Notes under the pieces: generated by a model
Told to the model about the DNA's origin: nothing
Databases searched by the model: none
What the model saw: the letters and a program-made list of their open reading frames with translations, nothing else
Assembly (NCBI GenBank): GCA_019115745.1
Contig: DXDA01000036.1
Coordinates: forward strand, 29,601 to 93,600
From: Candidatus Alistipes intestinigallinarum
Lineage (GTDB): Bacteria; Bacteroidota; Bacteroidia; Bacteroidales; Rikenellaceae
Reading direction: 5' to 3'
Length of the DNA stretch: 64,000 nt
Shown here: positions 4,462 through 27,619 of the stretch, in pieces
How the letters are laid out: every line of letters begins with the position of its first letter
Position numbering within the stretch: the first letter of the stretch is position 1
Position numbers and translations under genes: made by a program

Positions 4462-6300
4462 ATGAAAACGATATTCAGATATGGCGCGGCATACGGTCGG
4501 CTGGTCCTGCTTCTGACCCTTGCCGGAGCATTCCTGACGGGATGCCGGGAGGATTTCTCCCCGGAACCCGAGGATATTGAACTGATCGAATATTCGCGTC
4601 CGAAGGACCGTCCGAAGGATTTCCTCTTTTTGCCGACGGCTCCGGCCGAGGCGAAGCGGGATGTCGTGGCGGTGAAGCTGGAGGATGAAAAGGGCCATCG
4701 TTCCACGGAGGAGATCCTGGCGATCGTCTCGCTGCAGGGCCTGACCAACCGTGTCAGCCCCGAGATCTACACCCACTGCAACTCCGACGAGTGGCTGCTG
4801 GAGTGGTACAAGGAGAACGGCTATATCGACAACTATACCTATAGCGATGATATCATTGGACTGCTGAAGCGTTACCGACAGTATTACAAGGGTGTCGTGG
4901 TTTACGACCCGGACAAGAAATACACGGTCAACCTGGCGTCGAACATCGCCGGTGTGGAGGATCGGGTGATCCTGTCGCCCGCAATGCTGGAGACCTTCCT
5001 GCAAGATCCAGAGGTGGATGCCTTGATCGACGTGTTCGATCTGCGGGAGCTGAATTTCCGGGACCAGACCGAGGCCTTCATGTGGTATCGGCTGAACGTG
5101 GTTCCGCGTCAGACCAACGCCCTGCTCGGTTTTGCCGACAACTCGTTCATGTACAACGTACACCGCGACTACCTGATCGAGCATCGGGTGCCGACCTTCT
5201 GGCTCCCGGGCCCGAGCGATACGGACTATTCGATCTCCTATGACGGCATGGTGCGGATGTTCCTTACGGACAGCCATGCCAACCTGGCGATCTTCGGATT
5301 CCCGGCCGGTGTCGATGACAAGGGCGACAATATCGGCTACTCGGAGTACGAAGGGGTCAAGAACATGGGCTTCTACGGGAAATACTGGATCGGAAACACC
5401 TGGATCGGAAACTACAGCTTCCATTCGGCTGTCAAGGTCGACAACAAGACCTTCAAGCAGGAGGCTCCCCGCAGCAAGACACACCCGGTTTACAATCCGA
5501 ACAAGAAGTATGTGGCGCTGGCCATGACCGACAGCGGGGATGCCATCTGTTATTTCGCCTACGACGGATTCTTCTCGCGGCAGTGGCTGGAGGAGCGGAA
5601 GCAACTCGGCGTTGTCGCCAGCTATTCGGTGACCCCTTCGCTGCCGTTCCTGCTTCCGGCCGTGGCACGGCGGATGTATGACGAGCAGACCGCGAACGAC
5701 TTCTTCTTCGGATGCGTCTCGGGATTGGGTTATTGCTATCCGTTCGAGGGTTACGGGCAGTTGCTCGGCAACCGGGATGCGACGTTCCGGGAGTATTACC
5801 TCGAACTCGGCTCCAGCCTGCTGCGGAACATGGACCTCGACATGTTCGTGACCTACGCTCACCCGTTCAACAAGATCTGGGACGACAACGAACTCTCGAT
5901 CGCCAACGCATACATGGCCCGGATGGAGGGCATCCGCTCGATCATCGGCAATATCCACAGTTCGGGCTATACGGCCGCCAACGGCAGCTTCATGCTCCCG
6001 GACTCGGAGGTCAGCGTCCACCAGACCCTGACGCACTGGGACCAGTCGACGACCAACGACGTGCTCCAGAACGGCGACGACGACTCGAAGAACGAGGAGG
6101 CTGCCGAATATATGGTCGACGAGGTGCTGAAGTACGGAAAAGACGGAAATTTCATCCTCTGCATGTTCTACAGTTGGGAGTACGGCCCGAAGCGTCTGCG
6201 CATGATCATGGATATGCTGGAGGCCGAGTCGCCGGGAACCTATGAGTTTGTGACCATGAACGACTTCGACGATCTCTATCGTCAGAGTCTTCAACAATAG
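4462..6300 (+). CDS. GxGYxYP-family lipoprotein, putative glycoside hydrolase-like, copy 1
   Basis: Lipobox LAGAFLTGC. Family-naming motif present as GLGYCYP. Block VVVYDPDKKYTVNLASNIAGVEDRVILSPAMLE is shared with the next two genes. Confidence 0.85.
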   Translation: MKTIFRYGAAYGRLVLLLTLAGAFLTGCREDFSPEPEDIELIEYSRPKDRPKDFLFLPTAPAEAKRDVVAVKLEDEKGHRSTEEILAIVSLQGLTNRVSPEIYTHCNSDEWLLEWYKENGYIDNYTYSDDIIGLLKRYRQYYKGVVVYDPDKKYTVNLASNIAGVEDRVILSPAMLETFLQDPEVDALIDVFDLRELNFRDQTEAFMWYRLNVVPRQTNALLGFADNSFMYNVHRDYLIEHRVPTFWLPGPSDTDYSISYDGMVRMFLTDSHANLAIFGFPAGVDDKGDNIGYSEYEGVKNMGFYGKYWIGNTWIGNYSFHSAVKVDNKTFKQEAPRSKTHPVYNPNKKYVALAMTDSGDAICYFAYDGFFSRQWLEERKQLGVVASYSVTPSLPFLLPAVARRMYDEQTANDFFFGCVSGLGYCYPFEGYGQLLGNRDATFREYYLELGSSLLRNMDLDMFVTYAHPFNKIWDDNELSIANAYMARMEGIRSIIGNIHSSGYTAANGSFMLPDSEVSVHQTLTHWDQSTTNDVLQNGDDDSKNEEAAEYMVDEVLKYGKDGNFILCMFYSWEYGPKRLRMIMDMLEAESPGTYEFVTMNDFDDLYRQSLQQ

Positions 6301-6309
6301 TCGAATGCA

Positions 6310-8082
6310 ATGATGTCGGATCGGATGAATACCTGTGTAATGCATACGGAATCCTGGTTGCAGCGGCTGCGGATCGTACTGCTGGTGTCGGTGGCGCTGT
6401 GCTGCGGCGCCTGCCGCTCCGGCGTGCGGATCGATTACATGCCGCAGTGCCCTCCGGCTTCGTCGGCCATCGTGAGTTTCGACCTGCAGGGCATTGACCA
6501 GCCGCATCTGCTGGCACTCGTCTCGCTGCAGGGGCTGGTCAACCGCCACGAACCGCAGTTGTACACCTACTCTTCGGGGTATTCGGATGGCCTGCTGAAG
6601 CTCTACAAACGCATCGGCGTGGTCACCTCCGAGGAGCGGTGCGACGATGTGATGGCCCTGCTGGACCGTTACCGGGAGCACTATCGGGGCGTCGTGATCT
6701 ACGATCCGGCGAAACGTTATACGATCAATCTGGCGTCGAACATCGCGGGTGTCGAGGATCGGGTGATCCTGGCCCCGTCGCTGCTGGAGTCGTTCCGGGA
6801 ACGGGTGGACTCGACGGTGGATGTGCTGGACCTGCGCGAATTGGATCTGCGTTCGGCCGGGGAGGCCTTCGACTGGTATCGGGAGAAGGTCTTCCCGCAC
6901 CAGAACCATCGGATGCTGGGTGTGGCCAAGGATGTCTACATGTACGATGTCTTCCGCGACTATCTGATCGCCTGCAAGATCCCGACCTTCTGGCTTCCGG
7001 GCGAAGGGGACGACGACTGGTCCGAGGAGGCGGTCGAGGATGTGATCTGGCTCTATGAACATACGCCGGCGAACATCCCGGTCTTCGGGTTCTGGCCCGG
7101 GCTCGATCAGGGCAAGGATGTCGGTTACAACGAATACTTCGGGACGAAACTGGCCGGAAACTACGGCAAGTTCACGATCGTATGCACGTGGGTGGGCAGC
7201 TACAGCTACCACAGCGGCGTGCAGATCAGCAGTGACGAGTTCCGCCAGACCCGGGTCCGTTCCAAGCGTTTCCGCGACTACGATCCGACGAAAAAGTACG
7301 TGGCGCTGGTGATGGTCGAGAGCGGCGATGCTCCGGGGTACTTCCAGTTTGACGGCTTCTTCCCGCGGCAGTGGGACGATTCGCTGCGGGGCAGCGTCCC
7401 GATCAGCTACGGCATCAGCATGTCGCTGCGCTGGTTGATGCCCGGGGTGATGCGCCACCTCTACGACACGGCCACCGAGAACGACTACTTCTTCTGTCCG
7501 ATCTCCGGGGCGGGATATTGCTATCCGCTGCTGGGATACTGCGACTCGGTTCCCGACCGGGAGGCGCACCTGGATGCGTATTTCGATCTGACGGCCCGCA
7601 ACATGGCGCAGCTCGACATGGATATGCTGGCGCTTTACACCCATCCGGACCGGGTGCCCTGGAGTGCGGCGGACAGTGCGCTGATCCGTCGTTATGTGGA
7701 GCCGTTGCCGCAGGTGCGTTCGATCATCTCGGGGATGCACCGCACGGGTTATGCGCCGTCGCAGGGAAACGGATTTCTGGCAAACGGAACAACGACCGTC
7801 CATCACGTGATGACACACTGGTCGTGGGAGGATTGGGACCTGTTCCGGAGCGGGACTGCGGCGGATATTCCGGCCGCCGAGTTTCTGGCACAGGAGATCC
7901 GAAACGGCTGCGAAGGGACGAATTTCGTGACGGCCATGTTCTACAGTTGGCATTACGGACCCCGCCGTCTGGCTCTGGTCCGGGAGATGCTCGAAAAGGA
8001 GGGGTATGTCTTTGTCACGATGAACGAATTCGACGATCTGTATCGGAAAAGCAAACAAGCAAATAACGAAAACAAGCTATGA
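6310..8082 (+). CDS. GxGYxYP-family lipoprotein, copy 2
   Basis: Paralogue of 4462..6300. Motif GAGYCYPLLGY; shared block VVIYDPAKRYTINLASNIAGVEDRVILAPSLLE. Confidence 0.85.
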   Translation: MMSDRMNTCVMHTESWLQRLRIVLLVSVALCCGACRSGVRIDYMPQCPPASSAIVSFDLQGIDQPHLLALVSLQGLVNRHEPQLYTYSSGYSDGLLKLYKRIGVVTSEERCDDVMALLDRYREHYRGVVIYDPAKRYTINLASNIAGVEDRVILAPSLLESFRERVDSTVDVLDLRELDLRSAGEAFDWYREKVFPHQNHRMLGVAKDVYMYDVFRDYLIACKIPTFWLPGEGDDDWSEEAVEDVIWLYEHTPANIPVFGFWPGLDQGKDVGYNEYFGTKLAGNYGKFTIVCTWVGSYSYHSGVQISSDEFRQTRVRSKRFRDYDPTKKYVALVMVESGDAPGYFQFDGFFPRQWDDSLRGSVPISYGISMSLRWLMPGVMRHLYDTATENDYFFCPISGAGYCYPLLGYCDSVPDREAHLDAYFDLTARNMAQLDMDMLALYTHPDRVPWSAADSALIRRYVEPLPQVRSIISGMHRTGYAPSQGNGFLANGTTTVHHVMTHWSWEDWDLFRSGTAADIPAAEFLAQEIRNGCEGTNFVTAMFYSWHYGPRRLALVREMLEKEGYVFVTMNEFDDLYRKSKQANNENKL

Positions 8083-9869
8083 AAAACGAACGATCGAATA
8101 AACGGATACTGCTGTTGATCGGCCTGTTGGCAGGCCTGCTGCCCGGTATGTTGCTGGGATCGGGCGGATGCGCGCAACAGGTTGCAGCCCAGATCGATAC
8201 TCTTGATATGGTTCCGCAGTCGCCGCCGGCCGCAACCGATGTGGTGAAGGTGGTCTTTACTCCGGGGATCTCCCAGGAGAAGGTGCTGGCAATCGTCTCG
8301 CTGCAGGGGCTGGTGAACCGCGTGAAACCGCAGATCTTCACCTACGCGCCGAATGCAAACTATCCCGACGGCACGCAGCGGCTCTACGAGCAGGACGGTT
8401 ACATCACCTCCGTACGTACGTGCGAGGATCTTTGGGAGCTGCTCCGGGAGTTCTCCGACTACTACGATGGCGTGGTTGTCTACGATCCGCAGAAGCGCTA
8501 TACGGTCAATCTGGCCTCGAACATCGCGGGGGCCGACAAGCGGGTGATTCTCTCCCCGGCGATGCTGGAGGAGTTCCGGCAGCGGGTCGATGCCGATGTC
8601 GATGTGGAGGACCTGCGGAGTTACGATTTTGCCAACGAACACGCGGCGTTCGAGTGGTACCGCGAGCATGTCTTCCCGCGTCAGAACCACCGGATGCTGG
8701 GCGTCGTGAAGGACTTCTACATGTACGACGTGGTTCGTGACTACCTGATCTCCAGCAACGCCCCGACCTTCTGGCTCTACGGCAAGAACGACGAGGGCGC
8801 CTATCCGGAGAATCTGGCCGATGTGGAGTGGCTGATGGAGAATACGCCTTCGGGCATTCCGGTTTTCGGGTCGTGGATCGGCATCGAGAACGGCCGGGAA
8901 GTCGGTTACAACGAGTATTACGGTACGCAGTTCGGCAGTTGGTACGGCAAATATTCGCTGGCCTGTACGTGGGTGGGCGGTTTCAGCTACCACAGCGGCG
9001 TGCAGATCGGTGATTACGAATTCAAACAGACCAAGGTCCGCGCGAAGCACATGCGCGATTATGATCCGACGAAAAAATACGTCGCCCTGGTCATGGTCGA
9101 CAGCGGGGATGCTCCGGCCTACTACGTCTACGACGGTCTTTTCGCCCGGCAATGGGATGATCCCTACCGGGGTCAGGTGCCGTTGAGCTACGGATTGGCG
9201 CTGTCGATGCGCCAGTTGATGCCCGGAGTGATGCGCCACCTCTACGACACGGCTACCGAGAACGACTACTTCTTCTGTGCCGTGGGCGGGTTGGGCTACT
9301 CGTATGCCCTGCTGGGGCTCTGCGACTCCACCCGGATGCCCGACCGGAACTACCACGACTACTTCCTGCGGACGGATGCCAACATGCGGGCGCTCGACAT
9401 GGACATGATGATGATCTACACCTACTCGGGCCTTCAGAAGTGGAGCTCGGCCGACAGCCTGAAGGTAACGCGCCACATTGCGACGATGCCGCATCTGAAG
9501 TCGCTCATCTCGGGGCTTCACCGGACCGGTTATGCCCCGTCGGAGGGGAACGGCTTTATCGGCGACCGCGGCGTGACGGTCCACCACGTGATGAACCACT
9601 GGTCGGACGAACACGACTGGGAGTTGTTCCGCAGCGGTTTGGCCGGGGACGGTCCCGCGGTGGACCATCTGGAGGCCGAACTGCGGGAGAATGCGAAGAC
9701 GGCCGACTTCATCACGACGATGTTCTACAGTTGGCATTACGGGCCGCGACGCCTGAAACAACTGGTCGACCGCATGGAGAAGGACGGTTTTGTCTTTGTG
9801 ACCCTGAACGAATTCGATCACCTCTACCGGCAGAGTTGTGCCGTGAAAGGTCAGCAAGCGCATGAATAG
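8079..9869 (+). CDS. GxGYxYP-family protein, copy 3 with a variant motif (GLGYSYA)
   Basis: Paralogue of the two preceding genes. ATGA overlap with the upstream stop. Shared block VVVYDPQKRYTVNLASNIAGADKRVILSPAMLE. Confidence 0.85.
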   Translation: MKNERSNKRILLLIGLLAGLLPGMLLGSGGCAQQVAAQIDTLDMVPQSPPAATDVVKVVFTPGISQEKVLAIVSLQGLVNRVKPQIFTYAPNANYPDGTQRLYEQDGYITSVRTCEDLWELLREFSDYYDGVVVYDPQKRYTVNLASNIAGADKRVILSPAMLEEFRQRVDADVDVEDLRSYDFANEHAAFEWYREHVFPRQNHRMLGVVKDFYMYDVVRDYLISSNAPTFWLYGKNDEGAYPENLADVEWLMENTPSGIPVFGSWIGIENGREVGYNEYYGTQFGSWYGKYSLACTWVGGFSYHSGVQIGDYEFKQTKVRAKHMRDYDPTKKYVALVMVDSGDAPAYYVYDGLFARQWDDPYRGQVPLSYGLALSMRQLMPGVMRHLYDTATENDYFFCAVGGLGYSYALLGLCDSTRMPDRNYHDYFLRTDANMRALDMDMMMIYTYSGLQKWSSADSLKVTRHIATMPHLKSLISGLHRTGYAPSEGNGFIGDRGVTVHHVMNHWSDEHDWELFRSGLAGDGPAVDHLEAELRENAKTADFITTMFYSWHYGPRRLKQLVDRMEKDGFVFVTLNEFDHLYRQSCAVKGQQAHE

Positions 9870-13764: not shown

Positions 13765-16700
13765 ATGAACATGAAAAAGAACTGGATATTCGCCGCCCTG
13801 AGCGCAATGATGGTGGTGTCGGGCGGATATGCCCAGGAGAAGGGCGGCGAAGGTCTCGATCAGGAACCCAGCAAACCCAAGGCGAAGGTCGATCTGTTCG
13901 CCATTGCGAAGGAGCGGATGACCGCCAAGCGGGTTCTCAATACCTCCACGATCACCGACACTCCCCTTGCGGGAGGTCGGCGGGTCGTGTGGAGCATCGG
14001 CGCGAAGGATCGTTCGGCGTCCGATCTGGCTCTGGGCCCCGACGGTTTCCGGCAGTTTCTGGCCCGGGATTTCGGCTTCGAGGACCGCAACTTCATCGTC
14101 GGAGCCGACGATGCACGGGAGATGTTCCCCTACGTGTTGCCGGGACCCGTCGACACGTGGGGCGGAAGCTGGCCCACTTCGGGGTGGCATACGCACCAGT
14201 TGAATATCGATTTCGGGGTCGACCGGCTCCCGGAGTCGGGCGACTGGACCCTGGTGGTGAACCTGCTCGATTATGCCAAGGAGTTCCTGCCGCTGGTTAA
14301 GGTCAGCATCAACGAGCAGGATTATAAACTGCAGCTTTCGGCCGAGGGTTACGACGTCAAGACCCAGAAAAAACCGCTCTACGATCAGCCGCTGGTCGAT
14401 ACGCTGCCCATTTCGGGCGACCTGCGCCGCATTACGCCGCTCACGCTGGAGATTCCCATCGAGAAGGGGATGATCCGTCCGGGCGGGAACCGCGTGGTGA
14501 TCTACGTGCTCGAAGGCTCCTGGATCATGTTCGACAACGTGGAGATGCACGCTCCGGCCGAGGCTCGAATCTCCGTTCCCGGGCGGGCATTTGTCGGGAA
14601 GGTCGAGGCGGCGAACTACAGCCTCCGGGAGTCGGACGGGGTATTCCAGCCGCTGCTGGTTGCTGTCGAGCAGCTCTCCGGCACCCCGACGGTCGAGGTT
14701 CGTCTCGACGGTGAGCGGATCTTCCGGACCAAGGCCGAAACCGGAACCTATAACTTCGAAGCGCCGATGCCGGCCGTGGAGCGCCCGACGGAGAGCGAAT
14801 ACGAAATTCTGGTCGACGGGAAGTCCGTCCGCCGGGGCAGCGTGCTGCGTTCGGCACAGCCCGAGCAGACTCCGGCCGATTACGTCGACACGTGGATCGG
14901 AACGGCTCACTCCCGCTGGATGATCGCTCCGGGACCGTGGATGCCCTTCGGTATGGTCAAGATGGCTCCGGACAACCAGAATGGCGGCTGGCAGGCCGGT
15001 TATCAGCCGACGTTCGAGAATCTGGGTGCGATCAGCCATATCCACTGCTGGTCGATGGCCGGACTGGGCATGTTGCCCGTCAACGGACCGCTGCAGATCC
15101 ATGTGGGAGACCAGTGGGATCCGGACAGCGGCTACCGTTCGCGCATCGACAAGCGTTCGGAGAAGACTCCGCTCGGAGAGTACAGCGTACACCTGACCGA
15201 TTATGACATCGAACTGGAGGTGACGGGTACGACGCGCTGCGGTTTCCAGCGCTACACCTTCCCGAAGGATCGCGGCAACGGACGTGTGATGATCGACATG
15301 CGGGTTCAGGGCGAATTCGACTACCGGATCGAGAATTTCGAGATCCGCAAGCTCGACGACCATACGATCCAGGGCTTCAGCCACCAGTTCTCGCCGTCGA
15401 TCTACTACGGGGATTCGGACCAGGAGTATACGGTCTACTTTACGCTTGAATTCGACCGTCCGATCGTGAAATACGGCGGCTGGGTCGAAGATCGGATCCA
15501 GGAGGGCGGCGTGATCCGCGGTGACGATGTCCGGGAGGCGGGAGCCTTCGTGGAGTTCGACCTCGGGGAGTCTCAGGTCGTACAGGTCCGTTCGGGCATC
15601 TCGTACGTGGGGCTCGAAAATTCGCAGCTCAACCTGCAGACGGAGATTACGGAGCCCTTCGGGTGGGATTTCGACGCCGTGTGCGCCTACAACAAGGCCA
15701 CGTGGAACGACCTGATCGCCCGTACGCTCATCACCACCTCCGACCGCAACGAAAAGGTCAAGTTCTATACGAACGTCTACCGGTCGCTTTGCAGCCGGTC
15801 GATCTACAGCGACGTCAACGGCGAGTGGGTCTCCGCGGATTTCGTGACGCGGCGGCTGAAGGATTCCGACGACCGGATGCTGGGCGGTGACGCCTTCTGG
15901 AACTCGTTCTGGAACCTGAACCAGTATTGGAATCTGGTGACTCCCGAGTGGAGCAAGCGTTGGGTCAACTCCGAACTGGCGATGTACGATGCGCTGGGAT
16001 GGCTCTCGAAGGGTGCCGGCGGTATGAAGTACATCAACGTGATGGTGGCCGAGCACGAGATCCCGATGATGGTAGCCGCACACCAGATGGGCATCGGCCC
16101 CTTCGATACGGGCAAGATGACCGCGGCGTTCGATGTCATGGAGAACTGTGCGCCGCGCCGTCTGGCCGGCGGGTATGTCGGCAACCGCGATATGATTCCC
16201 TACCTCAAGTACAAATACGTTCCCTATGAGTTGGGAATCTTCTCCAACACGATGGAGTACAGCTTCGACAACTGGGTCGTGGGTCAGTTCGCCAAGTCGA
16301 TCGGCGACGAGAAGCGCTACGAACTCTACAACGACCGGGGATACTGGTGGCGGAATGCGATCAATCCCGCGAACGGTTACGCCCAGATGCGGGATACGCT
16401 GGGTCGGTTCGTGCCGGATTTCGATCCGTTTGCTTCGGGAGCGCACGTCGAGTATGTCGAGGGCAATGCCTGGCAGCTCACCTTCTTCGTGCCTCAGGAT
16501 GTTCCGGCATTGGTCGATGCCATCGGGCAGAAGGAGTTCGTGGATCGGCTGCAGTGGGGCTTCGAGGCCAGCGAGCCGTGGCGCTACAACGCTCCCAACG
16601 ACCAGTATTGGGACTATCCGGTGGTGCAGGGCAACCAGCAGTCGATGCACTTTGCCTACCTGTTCAACTGGGCCGGGAAGCCGTGGCTGACGCAGCGCTG

Positions 16701-17106
16701 GAGCCGTTCGATCGCCGAACGCTACTACAACATTGGAGCCGCCAATGCCTACCTGGGTGACGAGGATCAGGGACAGATGAGCGCCTGGTTCGTCATGACG
16801 GCCATGGGGCTCTTCCAGACCGACGGCGGAGCGCGTGTCGATCCGGTCTATGAGATCGGCAGCCCGATTTACGAGAAGATCGTCATCGACCTGGGCAATC
16901 GTTTCGGCCGCGGCAAGACCTTCACCATCGAGGCGAAGAACACGTCCCGCAAGAACATCTACGTCCAGCGGGCATGGCTCAACGGAGAGCGTCTCGACTC
17001 CTTCTGCTTCCCGGCGAGCGAACTGCTCAAGGGCGGGAATCTGACGCTGGAGATGGGTCCGACGCCCAACAAGAAGTGGGGGCTCCGTCCGTATGAGAAG
17101 AAGTGA
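13765..17106 (+). CDS. GH92-family glycosyl hydrolase (alpha-mannosidase-like) with an N-terminal polysaccharide-lyase-type accessory domain
   Basis: GH92-type sequence (MIAPGPWMPFGMVKMAPDNQ; DEDQGQMSAWFVMTAMGLFQTDGG; YEIGSPIYEKIVIDL). N-terminus VVWSIGAKDRSASDLALGPDGFRQFLARDFGFED resembles the W-x-IG-x-x-D region of PL4/rhamnogalacturonan-lyase-like proteins. Confidence 0.85.
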   Translation: MNMKKNWIFAALSAMMVVSGGYAQEKGGEGLDQEPSKPKAKVDLFAIAKERMTAKRVLNTSTITDTPLAGGRRVVWSIGAKDRSASDLALGPDGFRQFLARDFGFEDRNFIVGADDAREMFPYVLPGPVDTWGGSWPTSGWHTHQLNIDFGVDRLPESGDWTLVVNLLDYAKEFLPLVKVSINEQDYKLQLSAEGYDVKTQKKPLYDQPLVDTLPISGDLRRITPLTLEIPIEKGMIRPGGNRVVIYVLEGSWIMFDNVEMHAPAEARISVPGRAFVGKVEAANYSLRESDGVFQPLLVAVEQLSGTPTVEVRLDGERIFRTKAETGTYNFEAPMPAVERPTESEYEILVDGKSVRRGSVLRSAQPEQTPADYVDTWIGTAHSRWMIAPGPWMPFGMVKMAPDNQNGGWQAGYQPTFENLGAISHIHCWSMAGLGMLPVNGPLQIHVGDQWDPDSGYRSRIDKRSEKTPLGEYSVHLTDYDIELEVTGTTRCGFQRYTFPKDRGNGRVMIDMRVQGEFDYRIENFEIRKLDDHTIQGFSHQFSPSIYYGDSDQEYTVYFTLEFDRPIVKYGGWVEDRIQEGGVIRGDDVREAGAFVEFDLGESQVVQVRSGISYVGLENSQLNLQTEITEPFGWDFDAVCAYNKATWNDLIARTLITTSDRNEKVKFYTNVYRSLCSRSIYSDVNGEWVSADFVTRRLKDSDDRMLGGDAFWNSFWNLNQYWNLVTPEWSKRWVNSELAMYDALGWLSKGAGGMKYINVMVAEHEIPMMVAAHQMGIGPFDTGKMTAAFDVMENCAPRRLAGGYVGNRDMIPYLKYKYVPYELGIFSNTMEYSFDNWVVGQFAKSIGDEKRYELYNDRGYWWRNAINPANGYAQMRDTLGRFVPDFDPFASGAHVEYVEGNAWQLTFFVPQDVPALVDAIGQKEFVDRLQWGFEASEPWRYNAPNDQYWDYPVVQGNQQSMHFAYLFNWAGKPWLTQRWSRSIAERYYNIGAANAYLGDEDQGQMSAWFVMTAMGLFQTDGGARVDPVYEIGSPIYEKIVIDLGNRFGRGKTFTIEAKNTSRKNIYVQRAWLNGERLDSFCFPASELLKGGNLTLEMGPTPNKKWGLRPYEKK

Positions 17107-17191
17107 TCGAATTTGCAAATGAGAGTTGTGCGGGGATTCCGGCATCCCGATCGTTGCGGGGTGCCGGAATCCTCCCGATAACCGGAAACAA

Positions 17192-19537
17192 ATGACCATG
17201 AAACGAATCTGTTTGTTGATCGCAGCGCTTTGGGCAATGGCGGCCGTTGCCGAGGAGCGGGACTATACGCGCTACGTGCTGCCGATGGTTGGGACGGACA
17301 ATGAGTTCATCCTCTCCAACGGCAACGTGCTTCCCTTTGCGGCCCGCCCGTGGGGAATGAACCACTGGACGCCGCAGACGGCCGTGAACTGCGAGCCGTG
17401 GCAGTATGTCTACGATGCCACCCACATCACCGGACTCAAGCAAACCCACCAGCCGAGTCCGTGGGGCGGGGACTATGCGATGTTCTCGCTGATGCCGACC
17501 GTCGGGCCGATGAAGTTCCGGGAGGAGGAGCGCAAGAGCTGGTTTTCGCACAAGGCCGAGGAGTCGAAACCTCACTATTACCGGGTCTACCTGGCGGATT
17601 ACGACATTACGGCCGAGATGACGCCCTCGTCGCGGGGGTGCCTCATGCGCTTTACATATCCGCAGAGCGATGCGGCGAACGTCGTGATCGACGCCTTCGA
17701 CGAAGATTCCTACGTACAGGTGATTCCCGAGGAACGCAAGGTGATCGGCTATACGACGCAGTATTACCATAGCGGCAAGAAGGCTCCGGACAACTTCCGG
17801 AACTATTTCGTCATCGTGTTCGACACGCCGTTCGAGGAGTTTGCCGTCTGGCTCGGCAACGGTTTCGACCGGAAGGCCTGTGAGGCACAGGGTGGCCGGA
17901 CCGGTGTTGTTGTGCGTTTCAAGACCCGCCGGGGCCAGCAGGTCCAGGCCCGGATCGCCTCGTCGTTCATCAGTTACGAACAGGCCGAAATCTCGTTGAA
18001 GCGCGAAATCGGGGAGAAGAGCTTCGAGACGCTCTGCGAGGAGGGGCGTCGTGCGTGGAACGATTGCCTGAGCCGCTTCCGGGTGAAGGACGACCGGCTG
18101 GATGATCTGGACAACGTCCGGATGTTCTATACGGCTCTCTATCGGATGTTCCTCTATCCGCGGGAGTTCTTCGAATACGACGCTGCGGGGCAGATGATCC
18201 ACTACAGCCCCTTTACCGGAGAGGTTTGTCCGGGGCGGATGCACACCGATAACGGCTATTGGGATACGTTCCGTGCGGCGCGTCCGTTCTTCGACCTCTT
18301 CTTCCCCGACTGGCACGCCGGGTACATGGAGTCCGTGGCCAATACGTTCCGGGAGAGCGGCTGGCTGCCGGAGTGGGTCTCCCCGGGGCATATCGACGCG
18401 ATGATCGGTTCGAATTCGGCGTCGGTGATTGCTTCGGCCTACTTTGCGGGGGTTCCCGGCATGGATATGGAGACGCTCTGGGAGGGAATGTACAAGATGG
18501 CATACCATGCCCATCCGAAGTTGTCGTCCGTCGGTCGGGCCGGTGCGGAGGCTTACGACCGGCTGGGATACGTCCCGAACGACATCGGGGTCAAGGAGAG
18601 TGCTGCGCGGACACTCGAATATGCCTATGACGACTATTGCGTGTTGAAGGTGGCCGAGGCCCTGGGAAAGAGCCCCGAGATCATCGACACGTTCCGCAAA
18701 CGGGCCCTGAACTATCGGAATCTCTTCCACCGGCAGTTCAATCTGATGGCCGGGAAGGACTCTTCGGGACGCTTCCGGCCCGATTTCAACCCGCTGGCCT
18801 GGGGCGGAGACTTTACCGAGGGCAACAGTTGGCACTATACGTGGAGTGCCTTCCACGATCCGGCCGGACTGGCCGATCTGATGGGTGGCGACCGGGCCTT
18901 TATCCGGATGCTGGATTCGGTCTTCGAGCAGCCTCCTGTGTTCGACGTCTCGAACTACGGGGGACAGGTGATCCACGAGGTGCGCGAGATGCAGATCATG
19001 AATTTCGGACAGTACGCCCACGGCAACCAGCCGATCCAGCACATGATCTATCTTTACGACTGGACTTCGGAGCCGTGGAAGACGCAATACCATGTCCGGG
19101 ATGTGCTTGCGCGGTTGTACCGCCCGACGCCCGACGGCTATTGCGGCGACGAGGACAACGGTCAGACCTCGGCGTGGTATGTCTTTTCGGCGCTGGGCAT
19201 CTACCCGGTGAATCCCGTATCGGGAGAGTATGCGATCGGATCGCCGCTGTTCCGGGAGGTGGAGATCACGCTTCCCGACGGGAAGATCCTGACGATCTCG
19301 GCCCCGGAGAACGACGACCGCAACCGCTATGTGGACCGCGTCCGGGTCAACGGCAAGGCCTGCACGGTGAATTACCTGACGCGCGAACAACTTCGGCAGG
19401 GCGGGACGATCGAATTCCGGATGGCTGCCGAACCCAATACGAAACGGGGTGTCGACAAGGCATCGCGACCCTATTCGTTCTCCGAGGAGTACGGTGCGGC
19501 GGCCGGATCGGAGCAAGCTCCCGCCGCCTCATTTTAA
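17192..19537 (+). CDS. GH92-family glycosyl hydrolase (alpha-mannosidase-like)
   Basis: Signal peptide MKRICLLIAALWAMAAVA; YVLPMVGTDNEF; CGDEDNGQTSAWYVFSALGIYPVNP; YAIGSPLFREVEITLPDG. The ORF track starts at 17126, but the signal peptide supports 17192 or 17198. Confidence 0.9.
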   Translation: MTMKRICLLIAALWAMAAVAEERDYTRYVLPMVGTDNEFILSNGNVLPFAARPWGMNHWTPQTAVNCEPWQYVYDATHITGLKQTHQPSPWGGDYAMFSLMPTVGPMKFREEERKSWFSHKAEESKPHYYRVYLADYDITAEMTPSSRGCLMRFTYPQSDAANVVIDAFDEDSYVQVIPEERKVIGYTTQYYHSGKKAPDNFRNYFVIVFDTPFEEFAVWLGNGFDRKACEAQGGRTGVVVRFKTRRGQQVQARIASSFISYEQAEISLKREIGEKSFETLCEEGRRAWNDCLSRFRVKDDRLDDLDNVRMFYTALYRMFLYPREFFEYDAAGQMIHYSPFTGEVCPGRMHTDNGYWDTFRAARPFFDLFFPDWHAGYMESVANTFRESGWLPEWVSPGHIDAMIGSNSASVIASAYFAGVPGMDMETLWEGMYKMAYHAHPKLSSVGRAGAEAYDRLGYVPNDIGVKESAARTLEYAYDDYCVLKVAEALGKSPEIIDTFRKRALNYRNLFHRQFNLMAGKDSSGRFRPDFNPLAWGGDFTEGNSWHYTWSAFHDPAGLADLMGGDRAFIRMLDSVFEQPPVFDVSNYGGQVIHEVREMQIMNFGQYAHGNQPIQHMIYLYDWTSEPWKTQYHVRDVLARLYRPTPDGYCGDEDNGQTSAWYVFSALGIYPVNPVSGEYAIGSPLFREVEITLPDGKILTISAPENDDRNRYVDRVRVNGKACTVNYLTREQLRQGGTIEFRMAAEPNTKRGVDKASRPYSFSEEYGAAAGSEQAPAASF

Positions 19538-19550
19538 ATAGTTTCGTGTT

Positions 19551-20753
19551 ATGGAAATGAAAACTTCGGGGCGAGCCCAGGGTCGTATTTCGATGCTGCT
19601 GCCCGTTCTCTTCTGCTTTTTCATCATGGGTTTCGTCGACATCGTCGGCACGGCCGTGGCCAACATCAAGGATGTGCTGGGCCTGAGCTCGACGATGGCG
19701 GGGTTGTTGCCCAACTTCATCTTTATCTGGTTCCTCTTCTGCTCGATCCCGGCCGGGATGCTGATGCGCCGCTACGGCCGGAAGCGCATGGTGCTGGTCA
19801 GCAATCTGATCACGTGCGTCGCCATGCTGCTGCCGCTGGTGCTGATTTTCGGTGTGGCCAAACCGGGCCTCGACGTCTATATCCCGGTTTTCGTGCTGAT
19901 GGGTGTCGGGAACACGATCATCCAGGTGGCTCTGAATCCGCTGTTGACCAACGTCGTCTCGGGCGACCGGCTGGCAAGTGCCATGACGTTGGGACAGTTC
20001 GTGAAGGCGCTCTCCTCGCTGCTCGGGCCCCAGATCGTTCTGTTTGCCTCCGTGTGGCTCGGCGACTGGAACTACGTCTTCCCGATCTACGCGATTCTGA
20101 CGATTCTCTCCTCCGTATGGCTCTTCTTCACGCCGATTCCGCGTGAGGCGTCGGATCCGTCGGGAAGTGCTACCTTCGGCGGGGCCTTCGGGTTGCTGCG
20201 TGACGGCTATCTGCTGCTGATGTTCCTGGTTATCCTGCTGATCGTCGGCGTCGATGTCGGGCTGAACTTCTTCATCCCGGAGATCTTCCGGGAGGTCTTC
20301 GCTGCGGAGAATCCGGCGTCGATGAACACGCTCTATTTCGGAGCCCGTGCCCTGGGGTCGTTCGTGTGCGCCATGCTGCTAGTGCGCTTTTCAGCCCGCA
20401 AGATCTTCGTCTGGACGATGGTCGTGGCTATTGCCGCCTATCTCTGGATGATGTTCCTGGCCGGATCGGCCGGAACGGCCAGCGCCCGCATCATCTTCAT
20501 CCTGCTCTTCCTGCCGGTAGGGTTTGCGACGGGAAACGTCTTCTCGATCGCCTTTTCGTTCGCCATGCAGCATCGTCCGGAGAAGGCCGACCTGATCTCG
20601 TCGCTGCTGATCATGGGGGTGGCCGGAGGCGGAGCCGTGACACTCGTCACCGGCGCCCTGTCCGATGCGCTGGGTATTCTGGGTGGCATGTCCGTGCTGC
20701 TGGTTTGCCTGCTTTTCATCTTTGGCGTATCGCTCTACGCTGCCCGGCGATAG
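19551..20753 (+). CDS. MFS transporter, sugar-transporter-like
   Basis: Multi-pass hydrophobic protein with FIFIWFLFCSIPAGMLMRRYGRKRMV; follows the GH92 genes co-directionally. Confidence 0.85.
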   Translation: MEMKTSGRAQGRISMLLPVLFCFFIMGFVDIVGTAVANIKDVLGLSSTMAGLLPNFIFIWFLFCSIPAGMLMRRYGRKRMVLVSNLITCVAMLLPLVLIFGVAKPGLDVYIPVFVLMGVGNTIIQVALNPLLTNVVSGDRLASAMTLGQFVKALSSLLGPQIVLFASVWLGDWNYVFPIYAILTILSSVWLFFTPIPREASDPSGSATFGGAFGLLRDGYLLLMFLVILLIVGVDVGLNFFIPEIFREVFAAENPASMNTLYFGARALGSFVCAMLLVRFSARKIFVWTMVVAIAAYLWMMFLAGSAGTASARIIFILLFLPVGFATGNVFSIAFSFAMQHRPEKADLISSLLIMGVAGGGAVTLVTGALSDALGILGGMSVLLVCLLFIFGVSLYAARR

Positions 20754-20825: not shown

Positions 20826-21938
20826 CTATCGGTCGATCCGGTCGAGCTCCCGGTAGAGGTGCAGGAAGAAGGCGCGGTTGTCGGCCGAGACGTAGTGCAT
20901 CGACCGGGCCTTGGCCCGCGAGAAGGACTTGCAGTAGCGGAGGTAGTATTCCGGACGATTCTCGGGCGGTTCTCCGTTGGCCATCCAGTCCCACTTGGAC
21001 TCCGCCAGGTCGACGACGACGATCTTGTGTCGGGTCATGCGGCATCCGGCAGCGATGCGGACGTTTTGCGACATGGAGAGGGCCTTTTCGAAGATCATGG
21101 GCGAGGCGACCGAGGAGCCGACGGAGAGGTAGACGCCGTCTTCGAGTCGGCAGACGCTGTCGGTGAAGCAGAGGAAATCGACCTCGGCGGTCCGCCCGAC
21201 GGCGGCGAACGAGCAGAGCGGATGCATGAAGAAGACGTCGAGCCCGAACATCGGATGGACCGTCAGCGGAATCCCCGCCTGCCAGGCGGCATACTGAAGA
21301 CTGTACTCCCGGTACGGGAACTGGATGTCGATGCGCCCGGGGCGGAGGTTGTATTTTTCGATCTTTTCCAGCAGGTCGGCTGCGGCCGCCGAACGGTTCG
21401 GGTCCTCGGTGTTGGCGATGTCACGCTGCAGGAGCTCCGGGTTCGGAATGGTCAATCCCTGCTCTGCCAGGGTCCGGGCGATCGATTCGCCCATTCCGAG
21501 CCCTTGCCAGGCTCCGACGAGCAGGGCGAGGCTAATGGATCGGTCGGGCTCCTCCTGCAATCCGAAACTGCCGGCCGGGAGGCTGTTGCGCGTATCTTCG
21601 CAGGCGCAGCCGTGGAAGGCGAATTCCCAGTCGTCGGCGATCGAGGTGCCGGTAGTGGCCAGATGGGTCAGCCAGCCGCGGCGAACGAATTCTCCCACGA
21701 GCGGCCCCAGCCCGTTTCGAATCAGGTGGGTTCCGAAGGTCAGTATCCGGGAAGCCCCCTTTTCCCGGGCTTCGAGGAGGTCGCGGGCCGTGTTGCGGAT
21801 CGTCTCCATGGCCTCTTCGGGCAGCGGAGCCGGAGTCTGGTCGGGGCGGATCACCGCATCGGCGATCCGGACCTGTCTCGCGCATTCGGACAACGGCCGG
21901 AAGCGGATGTCGTCTCGGTTGAAACGGATGTTTTTCAT
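20826..21938 (-). CDS. Uncharacterised ~370 aa protein, family I cannot name, paralogue B
   Basis: Long ORF in coding context. Contains FGTHLIRNGLGPLVGEFVRRGWLTHLATTGTSIADDWEFAFHG, homologous to the next gene. Starts 1 nt after the stop of 21940..23052. Confidence 0.75.
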   Translation of the reverse strand: MKNIRFNRDDIRFRPLSECARQVRIADAVIRPDQTPAPLPEEAMETIRNTARDLLEAREKGASRILTFGTHLIRNGLGPLVGEFVRRGWLTHLATTGTSIADDWEFAFHGCACEDTRNSLPAGSFGLQEEPDRSISLALLVGAWQGLGMGESIARTLAEQGLTIPNPELLQRDIANTEDPNRSAAAADLLEKIEKYNLRPGRIDIQFPYREYSLQYAAWQAGIPLTVHPMFGLDVFFMHPLCSFAAVGRTAEVDFLCFTDSVCRLEDGVYLSVGSSVASPMIFEKALSMSQNVRIAAGCRMTRHKIVVVDLAESKWDWMANGEPPENRPEYYLRYCKSFSRAKARSMHYVSADNRAFFLHLYRELDRIDR

Positions 21939-21939
21939 G

Positions 21940-23052
21940 TCAGCTCATCTTGGAAAGTTCGTGGAAAAGTTTCAGCAGGAAGGCGCGGTTGTCGGCCGTC
22001 AGGAACTCCATGCCGAGCGGTTTGCTGCGGAGGAAGGTCTTCATGAAGGGGGTGTTGTACTCGGGGTTCTCCCGGGGCGGTTCGCCCTGTCGGAACCAGT
22101 CCCACCGCGGTTCGGCCAGGTCGACGACGGCAATGCGGTGGCGGTTGAGTTGCTCACCGTGCTGCAGCGCGACGTTCTGGGCCATGGAGAAGGCCTTCTC
22201 GAAGACCGTGGGCGACATGATCGCCGTCCCGACTGACAGATAAACACCGCCGTTGAGTTCGCTCACCGAATGGGCATAGGAGAGGAAATCGAGTTCGGCG
22301 GCGCGTCCGATGGCGGCTCCCGAGTTGAGGTGGTGCGTGTAGATGATGTCGTGGCCGAACATGGGGTGAGCCGTCGACGCGACGCCGAACTGGAAGGCTC
22401 CGGCTTGCAGGCTGTATTCCCGACAGGGGGTCGGGATCTCGTGCCAGCCCGCCTCCAGGCGGGCCTTGCGGATCACGTTCAACAGGTCTGCCGATGCGGC
22501 TTTCTGCGCGATGTCGCCATCCCGGATCAGGTTGATCAGCTCCTGCTCCGAGGGGATCCGCAGCCCCTGTTCCGCAATGGCCTTGCCGACCGAGGCGCCG
22601 TATCCGTATCCCTGCCATACACCGACGGCAATGGCCAGGTTGATCGAAAATCCGGTCTCCTCCCAGGTCCCGAAGCACCCTTCGGGCAGGTTTTCGTAGA
22701 CGGCTTCGCTGCTTTTGCCCTGGAAGGCGAACTCCCAGTCGTGAATGATCCCGGCTCCATTCGTTGCCAGGTGTGTGATCCAGCCCCGGCGGAGGTACTC
22801 GACCAGCAGCGGACCAAGTCCGTTTTTGATCGAGTGGGCTCCGAAGGCCAGGATGACCGGACGCCCGTTGGTGCGGGCTTCGAGAATGTATTCGGCCGTG
22901 CGGGCAATCATCTCGCAGGCCTCGGGACGCATCTCCGGATCGGGATCCGAGGGGTGGATGTAGATCTCGGCGATGTTCACCTTGTTTTTCCGCTCGGCCA
23001 GAGGCCGTTGGTGGATTTTGCTTCGGTCAAATTGGGGAAGACTCATGGTCAA
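21940..23052 (-). CDS. Uncharacterised ~370 aa protein, paralogue A
   Basis: FGAHSIKNGLGPLLVEYLRRGWITHLATNGAGIIHDWEFAFQGKSSEAV; 4-nt overlap with the stop of the upstream kinase-HAD gene. Confidence 0.75.
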   Translation of the reverse strand: MTMSLPQFDRSKIHQRPLAERKNKVNIAEIYIHPSDPDPEMRPEACEMIARTAEYILEARTNGRPVILAFGAHSIKNGLGPLLVEYLRRGWITHLATNGAGIIHDWEFAFQGKSSEAVYENLPEGCFGTWEETGFSINLAIAVGVWQGYGYGASVGKAIAEQGLRIPSEQELINLIRDGDIAQKAASADLLNVIRKARLEAGWHEIPTPCREYSLQAGAFQFGVASTAHPMFGHDIIYTHHLNSGAAIGRAAELDFLSYAHSVSELNGGVYLSVGTAIMSPTVFEKAFSMAQNVALQHGEQLNRHRIAVVDLAEPRWDWFRQGEPPRENPEYNTPFMKTFLRSKPLGMEFLTADNRAFLLKLFHELSKMS

Positions 23053-24953
23053 AGCTCTTTTTTCAACAGGAACGATGCGAGTTGGCGGTACTCCGTGAAG
23101 TCGGGGATGAGCAGGTCGGCACCGGCTCGGAGCAGCCGTTTGTGTTTGGATTCATTCCATCCGTAGCGGCGCACTTCGTGGCTCTGCACGCCGATGCCCA
23201 GGGCGCCGCAACTGCGTGCAACGCGCATCTCTACGGGCCCGTCGCCGAAGATGACCAGCTTTTCGGGATCGACCTGTTCCTGCTTCAGAATGTTGCGCAG
23301 CACCTGCCGCTTGGGGTCGTTGTGCATGTCGCCGACCGATCCGAAAATCCCGCCGGTGAAGCACTCCGCATATCCCAGCAGTTGCGCTTCGCGGAGTACA
23401 TCCTCCTGATCCGTTCCGCTGGCGAGGTAGATTTTCACACCGTTTGCGGCCAGCGTCCTGAGCAGCGCGATGCTCCCGGCGATGGTCACCTCCTCGGGGG
23501 ATAGCAGTTGCTTCCGGACCCGCTCCACGCGGTGTTCGATGAATGCCAGCAGGGCGTCGTTGTAGATGCGTTTGTACTCCTGGGGCGTACGGATCTCGGA
23601 CTCGGGAACGAGCCCCCATTTCCGGACCGCCTCGACGAGCATCACCATCTGGTTGATCGTCTGAATGCCGGTCGAGCGGACGATGAAGTCCCGGCAGTAG
23701 GCGCGAACCCGTGCCTTGAGCTCTTCGTCGTCGGCTTTGGAGCCCATGATTGCATCGATCATGCAGGCCTCCATGATCTCCTCCCAGCCTTCGCGGAGGG
23801 TTGAGATCGTGCCGTCGTGGTCGAATACGGCGTATTCGATGGCCGGGCGACGGCGGATTGTTTCGAGATCCGTGATGATCTCCGCCGTAAAGGGTTCGCT
23901 CCGGCGGACGGGATGCTCGTCGGCATTGTAGTTGAGGTCGCGGGTCTCTACGATTGCGCGGAGCTCCTCCGGAGAGCAGGTGCCGGTCTGGTGCAGTTTC
24001 TGGACGGTGACGCCGGCCACCGAGTTGCCGATGTGGAGGGCGGGACCGATCGGAAGCCCTGCAGCCAGCGCCAGGGCGAATCCGGAGAAGAAACTGTCTC
24101 CGGCACCGACCGTGTCGAGTTCGGTCAGGAGCGAGAGCCCTTCGGCCGAGGTGAACGTTCCGTCGTAGGCCGTCGCCCCGAGGTCGCCCCGGCTCACGAT
24201 CAGCGGATCTCCGGTCTGCTCGTGGTAACGGCGCATCAGCTCCCGGAGCTCGTCGGCCGGAACGTAGCTGCGCATGGGGTCGAGTTCGATGCCCAGTTCG
24301 GCTGCCACTTCATGCGTGTTGAGTTTGTGCCACATCCCCTTGAAGCGGCGCTGCATGGTCCGGGAGTCCACGATGAAGGGGACTTCGGGATGCTCTGCGG
24401 CCAGGCGGTTCAGCCCGTCGATGAATTCGTCGGTGTAGATCGTGTCTTCGAGCTGCTGGTTGATCAGCACGACATCGGCCTTGGCGACGGCTTCGGTAAC
24501 GCGGTCGAGCAGCAACCGGGCGGTCTCGGCCGAGATTCGGTTGCGGACGCCGGTGTCGATGCGTTCCTGCTCCTTGCTGTCTACGATCGGTTTGATGTAG
24601 GCCGGGGTCATCCACTGCTCGGACTGGACCGTCAGCGGCGCACCGGCGGGAAGTAACTGTTTCATCAGCCGACTCATCTCCGCTCCGAACATGTCCGGTC
24701 CGATGACGCCGATCGGTATGATCTCCCCGGCCCCCAGGGCGCAGAGGTTGGCGAAGACGTTTCCGGCTCCACCGAGCGATGTGGTCAGTTTGTGGGCGCG
24801 GCGGACCTGGAAACCGGTTTCGAGCGAGGGCTCCATGTCGGAACTGTTGACGTGGAAATAGACATCCAGGCAGAAGTCGCCGATCAGGACGAGGGTGGTC
24901 GTTTTCGCGGAAGCGAGCATGGTTTCGACCGCCTGATTGAGTTCTCGTGTCAT
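23049..24953 (-). CDS. Fusion of PfkB-family (HldE/RfaE-like) sugar kinase and HAD-family phosphatase
   Basis: PfkB motifs LIGDFCLDVYFHV, SLGGAGNVFANLCALGA, LDTVGAGDSFFSGFALALAAG. HAD motifs YAVFDHDGTIS, KIYLASGTDQED, KLVIFGDGPVEMRVA. Confidence 0.85.
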   Translation of the reverse strand: MTRELNQAVETMLASAKTTTLVLIGDFCLDVYFHVNSSDMEPSLETGFQVRRAHKLTTSLGGAGNVFANLCALGAGEIIPIGVIGPDMFGAEMSRLMKQLLPAGAPLTVQSEQWMTPAYIKPIVDSKEQERIDTGVRNRISAETARLLLDRVTEAVAKADVVLINQQLEDTIYTDEFIDGLNRLAAEHPEVPFIVDSRTMQRRFKGMWHKLNTHEVAAELGIELDPMRSYVPADELRELMRRYHEQTGDPLIVSRGDLGATAYDGTFTSAEGLSLLTELDTVGAGDSFFSGFALALAAGLPIGPALHIGNSVAGVTVQKLHQTGTCSPEELRAIVETRDLNYNADEHPVRRSEPFTAEIITDLETIRRRPAIEYAVFDHDGTISTLREGWEEIMEACMIDAIMGSKADDEELKARVRAYCRDFIVRSTGIQTINQMVMLVEAVRKWGLVPESEIRTPQEYKRIYNDALLAFIEHRVERVRKQLLSPEEVTIAGSIALLRTLAANGVKIYLASGTDQEDVLREAQLLGYAECFTGGIFGSVGDMHNDPKRQVLRNILKQEQVDPEKLVIFGDGPVEMRVARSCGALGIGVQSHEVRRYGWNESKHKRLLRAGADLLIPDFTEYRQLASFLLKKEL

Positions 24954-25280: not shown

Positions 25281-25916
25281 ATGACAAACTTGAATGAACT
25301 TTACGAAGCGATCCTGAACGGAAAACTCGAACAGGCGCAGGAAGTGACCCGGCAAGCCATTGCCGAAGGTGTCGATCCGCAGGCCATCATCAATAACTAT
25401 ATGGTGAAGGGCATGGAGGAGATCGGAGCCCGTTTCGAGGCGGGCAAGGCCTTTGTGCCGAATCTGCTGATGAGCGCCCGTGCGATGAAGGGCTCGCTCG
25501 AACTGCTCAAGCCGCTGCTCAAGGGTGACCGGAGCTCGTCGGCCGGCAAGGTCGTTATCGGAACGGTGAAGGGCGACCTGCACGACATCGGCAAGAATCT
25601 CGTGGCTTCGATGCTCGAAGGCTGCGGCTTCGAGGTCATCAACCTCGGTGTCGACGTGTCGAGCGAGAAGTTCATCGATGCGGCCCGTGCCAACAACGCC
25701 GATATCATCTGCATGTCGGCGCTCCTGACCACGACGATGAACTACATGAAGGAGGTTGTTGCGGCCGTTGAGGCATCGGGCCTCAAGGGGAAGGTGAAGA
25801 CCATGGTCGGAGGTGCGCCTCTGAACAACGATTTCGCCATGTCCATTGGTGCGGACGGTTACAGCTCGAATGCCAACGATGCCGTCGCTCTGGCGCGTCG
25901 GCTGGTAAATGCCTGA
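25281..25916 (+). CDS. Corrinoid (cobalamin-binding) methyltransferase protein, MtaC/MtbC-like
   Basis: N-terminal helical cap plus B12-binding domain with the DxHxxG signature (GDLHDIGKNLVASMLEGCGFEVINLGVDV) and MVGGAPLN. Confidence 0.9.
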   Translation: MTNLNELYEAILNGKLEQAQEVTRQAIAEGVDPQAIINNYMVKGMEEIGARFEAGKAFVPNLLMSARAMKGSLELLKPLLKGDRSSSAGKVVIGTVKGDLHDIGKNLVASMLEGCGFEVINLGVDVSSEKFIDAARANNADIICMSALLTTTMNYMKEVVAAVEASGLKGKVKTMVGGAPLNNDFAMSIGADGYSSNANDAVALARRLVNA

Positions 25917-25922
25917 CGGAAT

Positions 25923-26618
25923 ATGTTCACGCGGTCCGTATCGTTCTCCGAACTGGAGATTGCCTGGGAGAACATCTGGCAGGAGAGCGGCTGCGAGGGG
26001 TATGTCCCTGATGCTGCGACGCGTCAGTTGTTCGACGAGGTGGCCGGAGAGATCGCACGCACGTGCCGTCCGTCATACGGGTATGTGTCGTATCCCAACG
26101 AGGGGAGCGACAAGACGACGCTGCACTTGGGCGGACGTAGTCTCCGGGCCGGCGGCATCATCAGCCGCTATCTTTACGAGGCGGATGAATTCGTACTCTT
26201 CGTGGCCACGGCGGGCCGGGATTTCGAAGCCTTGCAACGCCGCTTTCACGAGGAGGGAGACATCGTCAAGCAATATTTTGCCGACATCATCGGTTCGGAG
26301 ATCGCCGAGGCGTTGGGCCGCCTGCTCTCCCGGGAACTGGAGGCTGCCCAGGCGGCCCGCGGCTTCCGGATCAGCAACAGCTACAGTCCGGGTTATTGCG
26401 GCTGGCCGGTCAGCGAACAACAGATTCTCTTCTCGCTGCTGCCGCCCGCCCCGTGCGGAATTACGCTGACGGATTCGAGCCTGATGCTGCCGATCAAGTC
26501 GATCAGCGGCGTGATTGCCGTCGGCACGCGGATCGAGAAGAAACCCTACGGGTGTGCGATCTGCGGAAAGAAGGATTGTTACAAGAACAGACTGCGCAAA
26601 AAACAGGAAAAACAATGA
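25923..26618 (+). CDS. MetH activation-domain-like (vitamin B12-dependent methionine synthase activation) protein with C-terminal Cys cluster
   Basis: RISNSYSPGYCGWPVSEQQILFSLLP resembles the SAM-binding region of the MetH activation domain; C-terminus YGCAICGKKDCYKNR. Lies between the corrinoid protein and UroD-like methyltransferase genes. Confidence 0.8.
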   Translation: MFTRSVSFSELEIAWENIWQESGCEGYVPDAATRQLFDEVAGEIARTCRPSYGYVSYPNEGSDKTTLHLGGRSLRAGGIISRYLYEADEFVLFVATAGRDFEALQRRFHEEGDIVKQYFADIIGSEIAEALGRLLSRELEAAQAARGFRISNSYSPGYCGWPVSEQQILFSLLPPAPCGITLTDSSLMLPIKSISGVIAVGTRIEKKPYGCAICGKKDCYKNRLRKKQEKQ

Positions 26619-27619
26619 ATACATCAGCATGGATTGATTCGCTCATCGGGGCGAAGCAGGTGGCTGCGGTTCCGATCATGACGCACCCCGGGATCGAGCT
26701 GTTGGGACTGCAGGTACGGGATGCCGTGATGGACGGACAACGCCATTTCGAGGCTATCGAGGCCCTCAACAAGCGCTTCCCGCAGTCGGCGGCGTGTACC
26801 GTGATCATGGATCTGACGGTCGAGGCCGAGGCGTTTGGCGCCGAGTTGCACGTCACGGAGAACGAGGTTCCGAGTGTGGTCGGGCGCCTGGTTTCTTCCT
26901 ACGAGGAGGTGTGTGCCCTGCAGGTGCCGTCGCTCGACGCGGCGCGCGTGCCCGAATACCTCAAGGCCAACCGTCTGGCGGCCTCCCGCATCGCCAAGCC
27001 GGTTTTTGCGGGGTGTATCGGCCCCTATTCGCTGGCCGGGCGCCTTTACGACATGACGGAGATCATGATGGCAATCTATACCGAGCCGGAGACGGTCGAG
27101 GCGCTTCTGGAGAAGTGCACGGCGTTCATCCTTTCGTATTGCCGGGCTCTGAAGGATTGCGGCGTGGCCGGCGTGATCATTGCGGAACCCGCGGCGGGAT
27201 TGCTGCCGGACGAGGATTGCCGCCGTTACTCGTCGGTCTACGTCCGGCGCATCATCGAGGCGGTGCAGGACGATACCTTCGCGGTGATTCTCCACAACTG
27301 CGGTAATGCGGGTCACTGTACGGGAGCGATGGTTGCGACCGGAGCGAAGGGCTACCACTTCGGCAACCGGATCGATATGCTGGATGCCTTGCGTGACTGC
27401 CCGGCCGATACGTTGGTCATGGGCAATCTGGATCCGGTCGGGATCTTCAAGAATGCCACCCCCGAGCAGGTGGAGACCGCGACGCGGGAGTTGCTGGAGC
27501 GGGCCGCCGGGTATCCGAATTTCGTCATCTCCACCGGATGTGATACGCCGCCGGAGATTCCCATGGCGAATATCGAGGCGTTTTACCGGGCGGTCGATGC
27601 ATTTAATGCCAAGCGTTAG
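26615..27619 (+). CDS. Uroporphyrinogen decarboxylase-family methyltransferase (MtaA/CmuA-like)
   Basis: UroD-fold sequence with AVILHNCGNAGH (His-x-Cys-Gly type metal site) and YHFGNRIDMLDAL; ATGA overlap with the upstream stop. The ORF track start at 26396 lies inside the upstream gene. Confidence 0.85.
   Translation: MNTSAWIDSLIGAKQVAAVPIMTHPGIELLGLQVRDAVMDGQRHFEAIEALNKRFPQSAACTVIMDLTVEAEAFGAELHVTENEVPSVVGRLVSSYEEVCALQVPSLDAARVPEYLKANRLAASRIAKPVFAGCIGPYSLAGRLYDMTEIMMAIYTEPETVEALLEKCTAFILSYCRALKDCGVAGVIIAEPAAGLLPDEDCRRYSSVYVRRIIEAVQDDTFAVILHNCGNAGHCTGAMVATGAKGYHFGNRIDMLDALRDCPADTLVMGNLDPVGIFKNATPEQVETATRELLERAAGYPNFVISTGCDTPPEIPMANIEAFYRAVDAFNAKR

Follow-up and report, generated by a model that had tools for sequence, protein, structure and literature searches.

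Within the window, a stretch of 64,000 nucleotides from the genome of a gut Bacteroidales species, three open reading frames on the minus strand form one operon (23049-24953, 21940-23052 and 20826-21938). The first gene (23049-24953) encodes a fusion protein of 634 residues that consists of an HldA-like PfkB kinase (residues 1-345, PfkB E=1.8e-21) and a capped HAD hydrolase (residues 360-634, HAD E=8.8e-15), with the GAGD and the DxDGT, SGxD, K and GDG motifs intact. The second (21940-23052) and third genes (20826-21938) encode two paralogous proteins of the 370-residue type. An earlier note on this DNA had described just such an operon of a PfkB-HAD fusion and two paralogues, and the open reading frames and domain matches confirm it, as the sequence does for its statement that the third gene starts 1 nucleotide past the stop codon of the second. 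The 4-nucleotide overlap which it reported for the first two genes exists only if the second starts with a TTG at 23052. Since the junction reads ...ctt TGA cc ATG agt... and homologues of the second gene product align from the ATG at 23046, this ATG is the probable start, leaving a gap of 2 nucleotides. No promoter signal above chance was found around the operon.

The operon constitutes the end of a 30-kb polysaccharide-utilisation locus. LacI, GmhA, ROK and URO-D genes (contig C17, 24867-29072) precede the gene for a SusC-like TonB transporter, which begins about 515 bases before the window and has its 3' part at 1-2712 on the plus strand. On the same strand follow genes for a SusD-like outer-membrane glycan-binding protein (2725-4437), three GxGYxYP putative glycoside hydrolases (4462-6300, 6310-8082 and 8079-9869, the first with a Pfam match and the other two assigned by sequence likeness), two GH92 alpha-mannosidase-family enzymes (13765-17106, with an N-terminal CBM-like region, and 17126-19537) and an MFS sugar transporter similar to FucP/NagP (19551-20753), which is convergent with the operon. 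The GmhA passes the cut-off of PRK00414 (266.8 against 265) and lies just under that of TIGR00441 (206.4 against 209.45). On the other side of the operon, at 25281-27619, genes for a corrinoid protein, a MetH-activation-domain protein and an MtaA/URO-D-type methyltransferase are found; URO-D-type genes recur near related loci in other genomes (L081, L082, L109, L128, L150 and L170), hinting at a methylated substrate.

How does the fusion protein relate to the known enzymes of heptose metabolism? The best solved relative of the kinase-half profile is HldA (4e84, E=5.5e-26), in agreement with the HldE-like sugar kinase domain proposed earlier, and TIGR02198, the HldA heptose-7-phosphate kinase family, is the nearest kinase family for all 40 of 40 fusion members. 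The operon kinase is not filed as HldA, since it scores 109 bits against the TIGR02198 cut-off of 345; it also differs from HldA/HldE in being fused to a HAD domain. The catalytic motifs of both halves are invariant among the aligned members, the PfkB GAGD motif being present and D286 invariant in 40 of 40. In Planctomycetes the two halves are separate genes on either side of the 370-residue protein gene. Like GmhB, the HAD half is a HAD hydrolase in a heptose-like context, but its fold is that of a capped HAD of the beta-phosphoglucomutase type, and TIGR00213 (GmhB) is absent among the NCBIfam matches listed for the operon proteins. An assignment of the HAD half as GmhB was rejected on account of this difference in fold.

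This bears on the pathway that the earlier note had in mind, ADP-heptose biosynthesis with the fusion protein as joined HldA and GmhB. The HldA-like kinase, its GmhA partner and the adjacency of HldC to PfkB-HAD in one Calditrichota genome would be in keeping with such a pathway. However, HldC, HldD and an above-cut-off GmhB were not found in the window genome (89% complete), nor was HldC in four other sampled genomes with the kinase-HAD and 370-residue protein pair, and the locus carries SusC/D, LacI, glycosidases and importers. ADP-heptose synthesis is therefore disfavoured as the end point and very unlikely here, and the locus fits sugar uptake and use better.

The two paralogues are 49% identical and both exceed the cut-off of 250 for NF052581, the "GSU2086 family" of NCBIfam, with 258.1 and 295.2 bits. 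They can consequently be placed in a named family, which the earlier note had not been able to do. The family is named and uncharacterised, and the paralogues accordingly match no enzyme with an assigned pathway. Family and paralogues have the GAHxIKxG, HDxE and GGV...GSAxxxP motifs in common. The paralogues are about 60 residues longer than GSU2086 of Geobacter and pair with PfkB-HAD and glycosidases, whereas the Geobacter type is found with HldE or heptosyltransferase genes. Foldseek searches with the predicted structure of the first paralogue (AlphaFold, pLDDT 93.8) return deoxyhypusine synthase (DHS), 3c2q, MMP1218 and the C-terminal domain of AgrE/ArgZ, including AgrE with NAD, with E-values down to 3.8e-7 and TM-scores of 0.4-0.45 for DHS, AgrE and MMP1218. 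A single-protein sequence search against the PDB yielded nothing significant. The profile of the 370-residue family matches AgrE with E=1.6e-5, a weak but significant sequence link to the group of DHS, AgrE/ArgZ C-terminal domain and MMP1218 (LOR/SDH), to which identity is about 10-14%. According to the predicted structure the paralogues are members of the DHS/AgrE superfamily and their fold is not new. As this fold is shared with the NAD-binding DHS and AgrE, NAD binding by GSU2086-type proteins is likely.

The DHS-like fold and the weak sequence similarity to this enzyme could also indicate a polyamine enzyme akin to deoxyhypusine or homospermidine synthase. The scores for PF01916 (deoxyhypusine synthase), 13.7 and 11 bits for the two paralogues, lie below the gathering cut-off of 27. 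Moreover, an hhalign register stretched beyond its reported end places Met279 opposite the lysine with which DHS catalyses its reaction (GGGVPK), and the alignment rows that were inspected have Met, Ala, Thr or Ile at this position. As the paralogues lack the DHS lysine, polyamine chemistry was rejected; it is highly improbable also in view of the sugar genes that surround them.

Two copies of the 370-residue protein were found in six genomes. In a tree the first copies form one clade and the second copies another, each with 100% support and the second copies on a long stem, so that a single duplication explains the pairs. Across the 83 other proteins of the 370-residue type, conservation of K76, N98, H104 and H234 (positions as in the first paralogue) is 99% or higher; these conserved residues are intact in the first paralogue of the operon and changed in six of six second copies, including the one encoded at 20826-21938. 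The second paralogue probably partners the first as a degenerate subunit, non-catalytic or altered. The earlier proposal that the pair acts as an enzyme or a heteromer can therefore be refined, one partner being consistently degenerate at conserved positions. A precedent is provided by Trypanosoma brucei, where a dead paralogue raises the activity of DHS about 3000-fold (PMC3663545). The trypanosomatid DHS prozyme resembles the operon pair in that an active and a degenerate protein of one superfamily are combined, but the reactions differ, and for the operon a heteromer is proposed by analogy.

How widespread is this gene arrangement? One scan detected 419 genome loci that encode relatives of the 370-residue protein. 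The best 80 of the 419, a selection that leans to close relatives and contains many short contigs, come from at least 10 phylum-level groups. In 42 of these best 80 loci the 370-residue protein gene has a PfkB or HAD gene as its immediate same-strand neighbour, and 40 of the 80 contain both PfkB and HAD; among those 40, a GmhA-like SIS protein is encoded in 22, ROK in 11, GH92 in 11 and AGE in 9. The number of loci and the frequency of adjacency together indicate conservation far above chance. Frequent neighbours of the relatives are a GmhA-like isomerase, a ROK kinase, GH92 and GH38 alpha-mannosidases and sugar transporters, and where the adjacent partner is missing the HAD half (38-48% identity) is often found elsewhere in the genome. 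Of 149 genomes from the order of the window genome, five encode the kinase-HAD fusion, and it is these five that encode the 370-residue protein. The co-occurrence in other genomes that the earlier note anticipated is thus seen within the order and across many phyla. In KSB1 and Calditrichaceae the GmhA adjoining the 370-residue protein gene passes the TIGR00441 cut-off; the commonest type of SIS partner scores well below the GmhA cut-offs, and nearly all SIS partners retain the catalytic Glu and His of GmhA. HldC, PfkB, HAD, GH38 and SSS genes are clustered in a Calditrichota genome.

Some of these loci contain additional genes. In a Calditrichota locus (L172, 7108-8025) a dapA-like aldolase-family gene lies between the SSS symporter and HldC-PfkB-HAD, and a relative of it adjoins the 370-residue protein gene in L114. 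Two Bacteroidales encode a divergent GSU2086 relative of 343 residues (L062, 9631-10662; L064, 9263-10288) that is distant from both main types and partners PfkB-HAD, ROK and SIS. In some Bacteroidales a MurQ/GKRP-like SIS protein and a BadF-like kinase, the latter without a Pfam match and named by eye, are encoded upstream of SIS-PfkB-HAD-GSU (L084, 64-2048; L122, 5677-7430), which suggests a link to peptidoglycan sugar recycling. In genome G303 the kinase-HAD and 370-residue protein genes also occur as a decayed duplicate with internal stops (L065, 6090-6828), next to SIS and AGE genes that are intact.

Further indications come from the short GSU2086 type, which occurs in 13 of 297 genomes of the phylum. 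HldC is present in 13 of these 13 and HldD in 0 of 13. Outside the class of the window genome, 14 genomes have HldC and lack HldD, and 13 of them are carriers of the short type. The mutual exclusion of GSU2086 and HldD has a Fisher p of 8e-15, a value that ignores shared descent and is drawn from five families of one phylum. One family (f31) shows what looks like a swap, with HldD but no GSU2086 in two of its genomes and GSU2086 but no HldD in two others. In Geobacter, GSU2086 is located between hldE and gmhA, and mutants in hldE (-3.1), GSU2086 (-3.2) and gmhA (-3.7) have electrode-growth defects of comparable size (PMC5585712). The exclusion pattern and the mutant defects suggest that the GSU2086 family stands in for the heptose 6-epimerase or acts alongside it. 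Alternatively, it may simply be D,D-heptose that HldD-less bacteria use. No description of an alternative HldD was found in the literature searched.

What could the operon then do? Our tentative reading, held with clearly less than even confidence, is that it is the intracellular arm of a utilisation locus for a manno-configured heptose, with C6 inversion as the most likely activity of the GSU2086-type protein. This reading rests on the GmhA cut-off passes, the kinase being nearest to HldA, the NAD-type fold, the co-occurrence of the genes, the pattern of short type, HldC and HldD, the Geobacter mutants and the residue loss in the second copies. We infer the substrate, the order of the steps, the use of NAD, the C6 epimerisation and the heteromer from these data. 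The source would possibly be L- or D-glycero-D-manno-heptose of bacterial surface glycans. Briefly, the sugar would be released by SusC/D and the GH92 and GxGYxYP enzymes and taken up through the MFS carrier. The PfkB domain would phosphorylate the heptose at C1, and the GSU2086-type protein, with its probable degenerate subunit as partner, would act on the heptose phosphate in an NAD-dependent manner, most likely oxidising and re-reducing it so that C6 is inverted. Removal or relocation of the phosphate would fall to the HAD domain, and ROK and GmhA would lead to sedoheptulose-7-phosphate. A point against this route is that a 1-phosphate can be turned back into a 7-phosphate only by another kinase reaction or by mutase activity. 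Heptose catabolism with GH92 and PfkB-HAD/GmhA operons was not found described in the literature searched. The more general claim of the earlier note, a cytoplasmic sugar-phosphate pathway, gains from the HldA-like kinase, the co-occurrence with GmhA and the recurrence across many phyla.

The main rival to heptose as the real substrate is mannose with its phosphates. It could be imagined that mannose released by alpha-mannosidases is converted by ROK to mannose-6-phosphate, which the SIS protein then isomerises, and that the kinase-HAD and the GSU2086-type enzyme process a hexose phosphate. Plain mannose fits the recurrent GH92, GH38, AGE (mannose/cellobiose epimerase-like) and SSS/MFS genes as well as heptose does, and the low GmhA scores of the commonest SIS type would also agree with it. 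However, a GmhA passes a curated cut-off in the window genome, KSB1 and Calditrichaceae, the kinase is nearest to HldA, and the long and the short GSU2086 subfamilies both travel with heptose genes, so that mannose, a serious candidate, is on balance rather unlikely. The heptose reading may also be right in the substrate and wrong in the reaction. DHS and AgrE catalyse NAD-dependent oxidation followed by C-N bond cleavage, without epimerisation. As these are the closest folds, GSU2086-type proteins could be net oxidoreductases or lyases that convert a heptose phosphate to a keto, deoxy or cyclitol product. The mutual exclusion of the short type and HldD in HldC-positive genomes points, by correlation, to replacement of the epimerase instead, and a net oxidoreductase or lyase is considered doubtful.

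For the family as a whole, heptose salvage by C6 inversion would be one part of a broader and more speculative picture, which we consider possible and not probable: the GSU2086 superfamily would consist of so far unrecognised heptose C6-epimerases that have the DHS fold and depend on NAD, the short type replacing HldD in LPS synthesis, the long type serving heptose salvage together with PfkB-HAD in many phyla, and a dead paralogue joining as partner in gut Bacteroidales. A family that has a name and Geobacter mutant phenotypes but no characterised function thereby acquires a concrete one that can be tested, and a candidate emerges for the apparently missing heptose 6-epimerase of HldD-less bacteria. 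If real, the active and degenerate pair of DHS fold would be a bacterial parallel to the trypanosome prozyme, and for the gut Bacteroidales a possible heptose-utilisation locus is indicated.
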